From contig JAPYUK010000013.1 of NCBI GenBank assembly GCA_029936155.1, forward strand, positions 1 to 38,089: a DNA stretch of 38,089 nucleotides, written 5' to 3'. Under the pieces are notes generated by a model, which was not told the DNA's origin, did not search any database, and saw nothing but the letters and a program-made list of their open reading frames with translations. The stretch's first letter is position 1. The number at the start of each line of letters is the position of its first letter. The stretch comes from Dehalococcoidia bacterium (GTDB lineage Bacteria; Chloroflexota; Dehalococcoidia; Lucifugimonadales; Lucifugimonadaceae). The position numbers and the translations under genes were made by a program. Positions 16,964 to 20,381 of the stretch are shown here, piece by piece.

Positions 16964-17578
16964 CTAAACCTTCGGGGCATCCCACGTAGTTACGTGGCTG
17001 AGTGTGCCGTCTGGGAACACAGCCGTGTACTCGTTGGCGAGCATGCCGAGGACCACCGAGTTGTGTCGTGCACCCTCGTGCGGACGACTCTGCCTCAATG
17101 TGCCTTCGTGCTGGAAGCCAATATGTTCGAACATGGCCCTGGCACCGGTGTTGTACTCAGGCACGTCGACCCACGCTCTATGAAGTCCAAGATGCTCAAA
17201 GATGTGTTCGAGCATGGCAATAACGGCGGATGTCCCGTAACCGTGATGCCAGAGGTTTTTCTGGCCGATTAATACTGAAATCTGGGCGTCACCAAGAGCT
17301 TCATCGATAGACAACTGACCTTCGCCAATGTGTTCGCCAGAGAGCGTGTAAATCGAGAAGATGTCTCGATGTGGCTCGTGGTGAGGATCGTGGAACACTT
17401 CGTTCCATTCGTCCTCGTTGGCGTTGATCATCTTTTTTGGCTCGTAGCCAAGGTGGGCGGCATCGCCATACGTGTAGCGGCCGAACCAAGCCTTTGCCAC
17501 TTCCTCGTCATTCAACCAGTCGGCAAGCCTCTGAACGTCTTCACGTGTAACCGGGCGCAACTCAACTAATGAGGGCAC
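16964..17578 (-). CDS. GNAT-family N-acetyltransferase (RimJ/RimL type)
   Basis: 204 residues. The acetyl-CoA motif is IGQKNLWHHGYGTSA (104-118), followed by the helix and the NTGARAMFEHIGF segment typical of the RimJ/RimL-like subgroup, which acetylates protein N-termini or small amines. The GTG start at 17578 is fixed by a very strong AAGGAGG on the minus strand (complement of 17584-17590). Its stop is 3 bases from that of threonine synthase; the two genes converge without a visible terminator. Substrate unknown. Confidence 0.9.
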   Translation of the reverse strand: MPSLVELRPVTREDVQRLADWLNDEEVAKAWFGRYTYGDAAHLGYEPKKMINANEDEWNEVFHDPHHEPHRDIFSIYTLSGEHIGEGQLSIDEALGDAQISVLIGQKNLWHHGYGTSAVIAMLEHIFEHLGLHRAWVDVPEYNTGARAMFEHIGFQHEGTLRQSRPHEGARHNSVVLGMLANEYTAVFPDGTLSHVTTWDAPKV

Positions 17579-17884: not shown

Positions 17885-18169
17885 ATGTCTGATCACTGGA
17901 AGATGGAAGCTGAGATCGAATACTGCGTACCGTGCGGATACGCCAATTTGGCCGCAAACATGGTTAGCGAACTGTTTCAGGCCGCAGGACCTGCACTGGC
18001 GATTTCTCTCAAGCCGGGCCACAGCGGAGCCTTCAAGGTAACCGTCGATGGCCGAGTGCTGTGGGATAAGAAAGAGTCGGGCCGCTCGCCTCACATCATG
18101 GAAGTAAAAGAGCTCAAGGCAACCGTTGCCAACATGATCGAGTCTGGCGCTGTAATTCAGAGCAGCTAG
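17885..18169 (+). CDS. Rdx family (SelW-like) thioredoxin-fold protein, cysteine form
   Basis: 94 residues with the redox motif Cys14-Val-Pro-Cys17 right after the first beta strand (EAEIEYCVPCGY). This is the position of the CxxC/CxxU motif in the Rdx family (SelW, SelT, SelH, Rdx12). The middle GHSGAFKVTVDGRVLWDKKESGRSP is the family's beta hairpin with its Ser-Gly-Arg-x-Pro turn, and a C-terminal helix follows. Rdx proteins are thought to take part in thiol redox control. The next gene is a tandem paralogue sharing a 20-base identical stretch (17909-17928 and 18271-18290), but with TGA at the second redox position. Confidence 0.88.
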   Translation: MSDHWKMEAEIEYCVPCGYANLAANMVSELFQAAGPALAISLKPGHSGAFKVTVDGRVLWDKKESGRSPHIMEVKELKATVANMIESGAVIQSS

Positions 18170-18243
18170 GTTCGCACTCACGCAGTTCGATTTAGGGTTT
18201 GTCAAAAACCGGTAATTCGATTCAACGAAATTTGGAGATAGTT

Positions 18244-18519
18244 ATGGTAGATGTACCAGCGAAAATACAGGCTGAGATCGAATACTGCGTGCCGTGAGGC
18301 TACCATTCAGTGGCTTTCTGGATGGGAAGCGAACTTTATGCGGCCGGTGGGTCGCATGTGGCGGTGAAAATTACTCCCGGTCAGAGCGGTGTGTTCAAGG
18401 TCACGTTAAACGGCGAGGTGGTGTTCGATAAGAGCGAATTGGGTCGATATCCAGCGCTACCTGATTCGAAGGAAATGAAGGCGAGGGTCATTAATATGAT
18501 CGAAGCCGTGACCGTCTAG
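18244..18519 (+). CDS. SelW-like selenoprotein: in-frame TGA read as selenocysteine in a CxxU motif
   Basis: A 91-residue frame from ATG 18244 (GGAG 6 bases upstream) to TAG 18519 with one internal TGA at 18295-18297. The TGA falls exactly where the upstream paralogue has its second redox cysteine: EIEYCVPC in that gene, EIEYCVP-TGA here (Cys15, Sec18). Homology continues in the same frame to the end: GQSGVFKVTLNGEVVFDKSELGRYP, then a helix ending in NMIEA. CxxU is the classic SelW motif. A hairpin at 18303-18325 fits a bacterial SECIS element. A pseudogene with a single stop is the alternative, but the frame is otherwise intact and the stop is at the one position where Cys/Sec exchange is expected. 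An ordinary gene caller would report only a fragment starting at 18310. Confidence 0.85.
18303..18325 (+). promoter_or_regulatory. Putative bacterial SECIS hairpin
   Basis: CCATTCAG (18303-18310) pairs with CTGGATGG (18318-18325) over 8 bp with one T-G wobble, leaving the 7-base loop TGGCTTT. It begins 6 bases after the TGA. A G at the second loop position fits the bacterial SECIS pattern, in which one of the first two loop bases is G. The TGA-to-loop distance of 13 bases is at or just below the short end of the usual range. A competing 7-bp hairpin (18297-18303 with 18310-18316) is also possible. Confidence 0.6.
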
Positions 18520-18581: not shown

Positions 18582-18612
18582 ACACCCCAGCGGTAATTGC
18601 TGGGGTGTTTTT
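18582..18612 (+). terminator. Rho-independent terminator after the selenoprotein gene
   Basis: A perfect 10-bp stem (ACACCCCAGC, 18582-18591, with 18599-18608), a 7-base loop and TTTTT at 18608-18612. An A-rich run upstream (AAGAAAAATA) would also give a T-run on the minus strand, so it may work both ways. It separates the Rdx/SelW pair from the alcohol dehydrogenase gene. Confidence 0.9.
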
Positions 18613-18725: not shown

Positions 18726-19820
18726 TTGAAAGCCGCAGTCCTAATTGAATCGAACAAGCCCATGCCAATCATGGAGCTCGACCAGTCAGAGCCAAAGACT
18801 GGTGAAGTACGAGTCAAGATGTCGGCTGCAGGAATCTGCGCGTCTGACCATCACGTTATGACGGGTGACAATCCGACCCCAATGCCAATCGTTCTGGGCC
18901 ATGAAGGCTCCGGTGTGGTCGACGCAGTAGGCCCGGGCGTTATGTCGGTGAAACCGGGCGATCGCTGCGTGCTGTCGTTCGTGGCAAACTGCGGCTACTG
19001 CCGATCTTGTAGAGAAGGGCTTTCAAACCTCTGCGACACCAACCGTGAGACCGGAACGCGCCAGTACGACGGTACGTTCCGAATCCACACCGACGATGGC
19101 ACCGAGGTTCATCAATTCGCCAAGCTCGGTGTGTTCGCCGAAAAGATCGTGGTTCCAGAGCAAGCTTGCTACCCGATTCCTGGCGATGTTCCTATGGAAG
19201 TTGCAGCGTTGATAGGTTGTTCAGTAGCGACCGGTGTTGGTGGGGTTATCAACCAGCCCAACATGCGGGCTGGCATGACCGTCGCAGTTATCGGAACCGG
19301 CGGGGTTGGTCTGAATGCCCTTCAGGGTGCTCGCTTGATGAACGCAAGCAAGATAATTGCTGTCGATATTTTCGATCACAAACTCGAGTTCGCTTACAAG
19401 TTCGGTGCAACCCACGTCATCAACTCGAAGAACGAAGATCCAGTTGCCGCAATTCAGGAACTTACTGACGGCGGCGTGGATTTTGCCTTCGACACGTTCG
19501 GGCACAAAGCCACGCTTGGCCAGGCGTACAAGGCCACTCGAAAGGGCGGCACGGCTGTGTTGGTCGGCATCGCACCTGAAGGCATGGATGTTGAGATCCC
19601 GATGGTCGACATGGTTCGGAACCAGAAAACTCTCGTCGGCAGCTACTACAGTTCAGCGAGCCCACATGAGACGTTCCGTAAGCTGCTGGACTTCTACAGT
19701 CAGGGTCGTATAGACGTCGGCGGCATGGTCACTCGCACGTACAAGCTCGAGGAAATAAACGAGGCTTACGATGCCCTTGCACGAGGTGAAGACGGCAGGG
19801 GAGTGATCGTTTTCGATTAG
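18726..19820 (+). CDS. Zinc-dependent alcohol dehydrogenase (MDR superfamily)
   Basis: 364 residues from the TTG at 18726, where the family's N-terminal strand begins ([12 protein letters not shown]). A frame reaching back to 18597 would overlap the terminator and add non-family sequence. Catalytic zinc ligands are Cys38 (GICASDHH), His59-Glu60 (GHEGSG) and the Cys in LIGCSVATG. Structural zinc ligands are Cys89, Cys92, Cys95 and Cys103. The nucleotide-binding GTGGVG is at 190-195, with VDIFD at the end of the next strand suggesting NAD rather than NADP. It resembles class III-like alcohol or formaldehyde dehydrogenases; the substrate is not determined. Confidence 0.9.
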
Positions 19821-19976: not shown

Positions 19977-20381
19977 ATGTTCGAGGATTATTTCAGGCAG
20001 TACACGCTGCTCATCTTTTTCGCCGCCGCGGCGGTGACCGTCCCCATCGGGATGCTCATGATGAGCTATATGGCCCAGTTCGTTAAGATCAGGCCATCGC
20101 ACCCAACTGCAGTAAAAGAAAGTGCGTACGAAGGTGGGATGCCTCCGTTCAGTGGTCGACCCGTTCGATTCAACTTTCGCTACTACAACTACGCACTGCT
20201 TTTCGTGGTTTTCGACGTCGAGACGATCTTCCTGTTTCCATGGGCAGTGAAGTATGGAGTGATGACCAAACAGTTTGGGTTTGCCGCACTGGGTGCAGTT
20301 TTGATCTTCCTTATCGTGGTGACTTTCGCCTACGGCTACGCATGGCGAAAGCGAACTCTTGAGTGGGTGACAAACGAATGA
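19977..20381 (+). CDS. nuoA: NADH-quinone oxidoreductase subunit A
   Basis: 134 residues, three transmembrane helices. Family marks are [39 protein letters not shown] and the acidic pair in FDVE that lies near the quinone-to-membrane coupling path. First gene of an operon with overlapping start and stop codons; its TGA overlaps the nuoB ATG. The subunit sits in the membrane at the junction with the peripheral arm. Confidence 0.95.

Follow-up and report, generated by a model that had tools for sequence, protein, structure and literature searches.

A probable SelW-like selenoprotein gene next to its cysteine paralogue in a SAR202 bacterium

The window analysed here, a stretch of 38,089 nucleotides, is contig C80 of the genome assembly of an uncultured marine SAR202 bacterium of the Chloroflexota (G000; 2.07 Mb in 84 contigs, 89.3% complete). 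At positions 18244-18519 it carries a short reading frame that is interrupted once by TGA. We conclude with high confidence that this frame is a functional gene for a SelW-like selenoprotein (Rdx family, CxxU motif), in which the UGA is decoded as selenocysteine (Sec) by way of a downstream stem-loop. The computed basis for this reading is homology, conservation of the TGA, purifying selection, a constrained and covarying hairpin, and the presence of selA and selB. From these we infer the insertion of Sec, the binding of SelB to the hairpin, an intact tRNA-Sec and selD in the organism, and a redox activity of the product.

In the mechanism that we propose, the ribosome would read the UGA at 18295-18297 as selenocysteine. 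The stem-loop just 3' of the UGA, within the coding sequence (apical stem 18313-18330), would recruit SelB with Sec-tRNA-Sec, which SelA would make with selenophosphate provided by SelD. The product, predicted to have the thioredoxin-like fold of SelW, is presumably a thiol/selenol redox protein that acts via C15 and U18, and its tandem neighbour would be an old Cys paralogue.

The reading frame and its surroundings

The gene lies on the plus strand, starts with the ATG at 18244 and ends with a TAG stop at 18519, giving 91 codons with the UGA read as Sec. The only break in the frame is the TGA at 18295-18297 (codon 18), which aligns with the second Cys codon of the neighbouring gene at 17885-18169 (CVP-TGA against CVPC). 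That a single TGA stands at the position of the second redox Cys of the paralogue, as the sequence-only reading had stated, can be read directly from the sequence. The homology that it claimed on both sides of the TGA was also borne out: with the TGA taken as a residue, the translation contains one Pfam Rdx domain (PF10262) spanning residues 11-82 and scoring 62.2 bits (cut-off 22.6), and the paralogue scores 67.9 bits. The NCBIfam model TIGR02174 (CXXU_selWTH) gives 48.8 bits for the Sec frame and the Cys paralogue alike (cut-off 34.2). The CxxU motif had been called the defining arrangement of SelW; it is typical of SelW but not exclusive to it, an AhpD-like family in the table of the Global Ocean Sampling (GOS) survey being CxxU as well (PMC2398784).

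In an AlphaFold2 model of the Sec protein, computed with Cys substituted for Sec (pLDDT 91.5), the C15-V-P-U18 motif closes strand 8-15. The top 22 PDB matches to this model in Foldseek are chains of 2fa8, 2ojl, 2obk, 2oka, 2p0g, 3dex and mouse SelW (2npb).

The signals around the frame differ in quality. As claimed, there is a proper ribosome-binding site, GGAG at 18234-18237 on the plus strand, 6 nt 5' of the ATG. The terminator that was said to follow the gene is a weak point: a hairpin of 10 pairs with a 7-nt loop and T runs on both sides does lie at 18582-18608, starting 63 nt beyond the stop, but the scan lists it on the minus strand only and found one such hairpin against a shuffle mean of 0.8. 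A scan of the whole window for frames broken by a TGA with a motif close by gave many besides the known site; these have the appearance of chance.

Under translation table 11, the only ORF of at least 60 aa in this frame is a GTG-started fragment of 69 aa on the plus strand (18310-18519), the expected product of a standard gene caller and the very truncation that the sequence-only reading had foreseen. Ordinary annotation would shorten a genuine gene here, in which the stop-like TGA almost certainly encodes selenocysteine. The gene is an example of a coding sequence shortened by normal annotation.

The gene order around the frame is a GNAT acetyltransferase (16964-17578, minus strand; PF13302, 65.5 bits), the Cys-type Rdx gene (17885-18169, plus strand; 94 aa, CVPC), the Sec-type Rdx gene, a zinc-dependent alcohol dehydrogenase (18726-19820, plus strand; PF00107, 121.9 bits) and nuoA. 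The acetyltransferase is a conserved upstream neighbour, found at 41 of 42 named loci, and the dehydrogenase a conserved downstream neighbour, found at 34 of the 42 within flanks of at most 2 kb. The Cys-type protein of the window shares 95% identity with its counterpart in Candidatus Lucifugimonas marina JH1073 (CP046147) and 100% with the one in the record of Dehalococcoidia bacterium isolate UWMA-0331. The host presumably is a member of the genus of Ca. Lucifugimonas.

Conservation of the TGA and of the sequence around it

We searched 60 genomes with the PF10262 profile, namely the genome of the window itself, 18 others of its genus, 18 of its family and 23 of its order. The search returned 81 matches in 50 genomes, of which 48 have exactly one internal TGA and 33 have no internal stop; TAA, TAG or two stops occur in none of the 81. 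Among the 80 distinct copies, 47 carry the TGA, 32 have C-x-x-C and one, the second copy of genome G056, has neither residue. All 47 distinct TGA copies read C-x-x-U (36 CVPU, 11 others). Apart from that one exception, the TGA alternates in the aligned relatives with Cys codons only. In G056 (contig C10; L031, 1492-2062), a CVPU Rdx is followed by the copy without Cys or Sec (YSLSDG), which is possibly a non-catalytic paralogue. One congener holds a second, very different TGA-containing Rdx (CAQU; G003:C4:1640-1852, L045), which sits on a long branch among distant order-level copies.

Within the genus, the Cys copy is found in 18 of the 19 genomes, including that of the window; the exception, G002 (84% complete), has no Rdx match at all. 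An intact Sec copy lies 3' of the Cys copy in 16 of these 18 (16/19 of all). The Sec copy is ruined in the other two, G001 and G018, and the Cys copy in neither. In G001 (L044, 1855-2082), and likewise at the named locus L112 (2382-2609), the Sec copy has lost the Cys of CxxU, is frameshifted and contains a second TGA next to an intact Cys paralogue. In G018 (L052), the region 3' of the Cys copy keeps the Sec copy from its start to CVP and then continues as unrelated sequence, apparently a loss of the Sec gene independent of other losses. Ruin of the Sec copy in 2 of 18 genomes suggests that the Sec gene is dispensable in some lineages. Of the pseudogene signs named by the sequence-only reading, other stop codons or frameshifts in related strains, the former are lacking from all 81 matches as regards TAA and TAG. 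The latter occur as frameshift or decay in these two genomes, which have lost the CxxU Cys or everything past CVP, unlike the other 16.

Purifying selection acts on both sides of the TGA in the 16 genus Sec copies, with dN/dS of 0.059 before it and 0.080 after it (72 and 90 of 120 pairs with usable dS). The corresponding values for the 18 genus Cys copies are 0.00 before the position of the second Cys and 0.023 after it (78 and 96 of 153 pairs). Synonymous sites downstream of the TGA are constrained as well. At codons +5 to +13 of the Sec copies (7 usable columns), a range chosen after viewing the hairpins and sequences there and thus not blind, the mean pairwise synonymous difference is 0.105, compared with 0.544 in the 69 other columns, and 0 of 20,000 permutations were as low. 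This collapse is absent at the same codons of the 18 Cys copies (0.567 vs 0.510, p 0.75). The outcome was alike for all three ranges run (+1 to +13, +5 to +13 and -3 to +13): 0/20,000 permutations were as low among the Sec copies, and p values were 0.75-0.85 among the Cys copies. Protein conservation alone does not account for the collapse; an RNA signal can.

A candidate for this signal is a hairpin on the plus strand at 18313-18330, presumably the apical part of a bacterial SECIS, with a 7-bp stem (GCUUUCU/GGGAAGC), a GGAU loop and its centre ~24 nt after the UGA. Synonymous constraint, stem conservation and compensatory pairs point to it. The 7-bp stem around GGAU is possible in 16/16 genus Sec copies, and at least 4 pairs can form at ~24 nt in 28 of the 31 Sec copies from outside the genus (0.90), whereas no other loop position tried exceeded 0.48. 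Among the Cys copies, at least 4 pairs are possible at ~24 nt in 18 of 32, and the best positions are elsewhere (0.72 at 32 and 34 nt). Across the 31 non-genus Sec copies, standard pairing at the four inner pairs is seen in 107 of 124 cells, compared with 79.2 (sd 3.2) in shuffles, 0/10,000 of which were as high, a significance that is overstated because the shuffles ignore relatedness. For single inner pairs, the fraction of shuffles as high ranges from 0.04 to 0. At these pairs C-G, G-C, T-A, A-T and G-T replace each other, that is, the exchanges are compensatory. The genus and its relatives differ by one base in the register of the stem.

Folding energy was less informative. At its minimum energy, the segment 18291-18345 folds more stably than 200/200 shuffles (z -2.97), but with a pairing that differs from the conserved apical stem. 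Compared with 300 synonymous recodings each, the hairpin energy was not clearly lower (mean z -0.68 in 47 Sec copies and -0.18 in 32 Cys copies). As the free-energy tests failed to separate the Sec copies clearly from their recodings, we used synonymous-site conservation and pair counts instead. The genus Sec copies also have a second high-scoring stem nearer the UGA, with its loop centre ~10 nt after the UGA and a mean of 5.9 bp.

Selenocysteine machinery and rival explanations

The sequence-only reading stated that the organism must carry selA, selB, selC and selD, and part of this set is present in the assembly. Two genes are found over cut-off: selA (509 bits, cut-off 267.9; C81:9616-10956) and selB (322 bits, cut-off 242.25; C54:9004), whose 627-aa product has the GTPase, the SelB beta-barrel and two SelB winged-helix domains. 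Of tRNA-Sec there is a trace, a 28-nt 3' end (nt 71-98) that forms the last bases of contig C46 (76860-76887 of 76887), which is identical to the same stretch of the congener G002 and matches that of G013 at 27/28 positions. No selD match over cut-off was found in this 89% complete assembly.

For tRNA-Sec, scoring with RF01852 in G000 covered 80 of 302 first-look candidates. An RF01852 match of 52.3 bits in this genome was rejected, ARAGORN calling it tRNA-Ser(GCT); run on 15 loci from the relatives and G000, ARAGORN called 14 tRNA-Sec(TCA) genes, the fifteenth being the tRNA-Ser of G000. BLAST for tRNA-Sec matched 7 of 16 genomes and missed G003, G026 and G050 despite their selA, so that it is too insensitive to show absence. 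Contigs of four genus assemblies end at or inside the tRNA-Sec gene (G000, end of C46, L057/L058; G001, end of C35, L155; G015, end of C18 and start of C36, L156 and L157; G012, end of C3 and start of C17, L059 and L022). G012 contains the gene twice in full, each time at a contig end, and G013 has one copy in the 16 kb examined. The tRNA-Sec gene may be a site of integration, or a place where strains differ.

In the wider set, selD is over cut-off in 51 of 60 genomes, 17 of the 18 congeners among them, and each such match itself contains one TGA. When the 10-kb selD region of G013 was compared with its congeners, G000 gave a single 440-nt match of 71% identity, G003 gave none and G012 gave most of the region in order, a result that fits an assembly gap in G000 without proving one. 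A SelD frame with one TGA was also seen at G041:C26:6009-6938; this genome (86% complete) has no selA match over cut-off, which either a gap or a lone selD could explain. Among the 53 genomes with selA over cut-off, 42 have TGA-containing Rdx genes, compared with 0 of the 7 without (Fisher p 8e-5, which overstates independence, the 60 genomes being related and several of them incomplete). Four of these seven (G023, G024, G041, G048) keep a Cys Rdx.

Could the TGA be a nonsense mutation in a dead duplicate, or a sequencing error? Decay is real in the genus, as the frameshifted copy of G001, with its lost CxxU Cys and second TGA, and the copy of G018 cut right after CVP demonstrate. Nevertheless, we consider this very improbable for the gene of the window: an intact frame with the same TGA is present in 16/19 genus genomes, TGA-type Rdx genes occur in 42/60 genomes, the sequence 3' of the TGA is under purifying selection, and a second stop is found in 0/48 TGA-bearing matches.

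Even less credence is due to the two remaining explanations. If the 17 codons before the UGA were a leader peptide that stops there, the real product would be the 69-aa fragment, for which the GTG at 18310 is available as a start; but the first strand and the conserved C15 precede the TGA, and purifying selection acts on codons -14 to -1 too (dN/dS 0.059). Moreover, this GTG is codon +5 within the constrained stretch, so its conservation is no evidence for a start. Equally implausible is a genome-wide reassignment of UGA, for example to Trp, or its readthrough by an ordinary tRNA. The sole point in its favour is that the frame would be open under such a code, but Trp in the Rdx domain is encoded by TGG, nuoA (19977-20381) ends in TGA, and the TGA occurs once per TGA-bearing Rdx match (48), at the position of the catalytic Cys. 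The presence of selA, selB and a SECIS-like constraint also argues against it. The SelW-like selenoprotein reading is the one on which family, position of the TGA, conservation, selection, covarying hairpin, and selA with selB agree.

The Sec/Cys pair and known SelW-like proteins

Among the 42 named loci, which come from a genome collection and probably repeat many of the 60 genomes, 16 have an intact pair, one has a ruined Sec copy, one lacks a recognisable Sec copy and 24 have the Cys copy alone (flank at most 2 kb). The 16 with an intact Sec gene 3' of the Cys copy all belong to L100-L117, the loci closest to the window; the locus of Ca. L. marina JH1073 (L108) is one of them and carries an intact CVPU copy. 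One locus of this series, L114 (SMWD01000133.1), is titled Gammaproteobacteria bacterium; it is a SAR202 locus at 93% identity, probably from a mislabelled or mixed bin.

In a tree of 80 rows, one group (support 89/90) unites the 30 Cys copies from the genus and the family. Next to it are two groups made up of Sec copies (support 92/85 and 90/85), and a distant mixed group has 13 rows. We also considered that the pair arose by recent tandem duplication inside the genus and rejected this: forcing the genus Sec and Cys copies into one clade loses 50.8 log units (p-AU 0.0009), in a test on 67 rows and few alignment columns, with the 13 divergent rows left out. The group forced together had 36 rows, including two family Cys rows (G023, G048) added once the tree had placed them inside the genus Cys group, so that the p value is not for a wholly predefined group. 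As the test rejects a joint genus group, the Sec and Cys forms probably parted before the genus arose, and their standing side by side does not stem from a recent duplication. Sec and Cys copies are adjacent in G020 and G045 too, but there the Sec copy comes first.

It is conceivable, though we would rather doubt it, that the neighbours are a functional pair of old paralogues and not a leftover. They might form a redox couple, or serve as alternatives for selenium-rich and selenium-poor conditions, the Cys copy being essential where the Sec copy, or the machinery for Sec, has been lost. As both forms stand side by side in 16/19 genus genomes, the cost and benefit of Sec and Cys can be compared within one locus.

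SAR202 bacteria are ubiquitous in the ocean, according to a published abstract. In the Sargasso set, SelW-like proteins outnumbered every other family, with 48 genes (PMC1088965), and in the GOS set they were, with SelD, the most widespread, with 427 Sec and 56 Cys forms (PMC2398784). The marine SelW-like proteins of these two surveys share family and CxxU motif with the window protein. They are described from environmental reads, with no host given as SAR202 or Chloroflexi, and neither word appears in the main text of PMC2398784, whereas the window gene has a SAR202 host and an adjoining Cys paralogue. Our finding ties the commonest selenoprotein family of the sea to a host group, SAR202, that is in part cultured. 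The literature searched, mostly outside subscription journals, yielded no earlier report that SAR202 uses Sec, although both terms do co-occur in print; the main text of the SAR202 cultivation paper contains no word beginning with "selen".

The function of SelW-like proteins was called unclear, with a redox role inferred from CxxU (PMC1088965). The fold of the window protein is common to the solved Rdx structures (2fa8, 2ojl, 2obk, 2oka, 2p0g, 3dex) and mouse SelW (2npb): Foldseek gave TM scores of 0.77/0.85 to 2fa8 and 0.70/0.72 to mouse SelW, and a profile search found the same chains (E 3.8e-23 to 2fa8). The solved proteins are 16-31% identical to the window protein among the top 23 matches, and the window protein differs in carrying Sec. 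Its presumed SECIS resembles the bacterial SECIS described in PMC1088965, a stem-loop just 3' of the UGA in the coding region with a G in a small apical loop. According to a 2006 survey (PMC1794560), organisms that use Sec have very few Cys homologues of SelW-like selenoproteins, if any, and Sec was taken to be the original form. The SelW-like family is thus already known and common in seawater; what is less ordinary here is an old pair of Sec and Cys paralogues that is kept adjacent through the genus.
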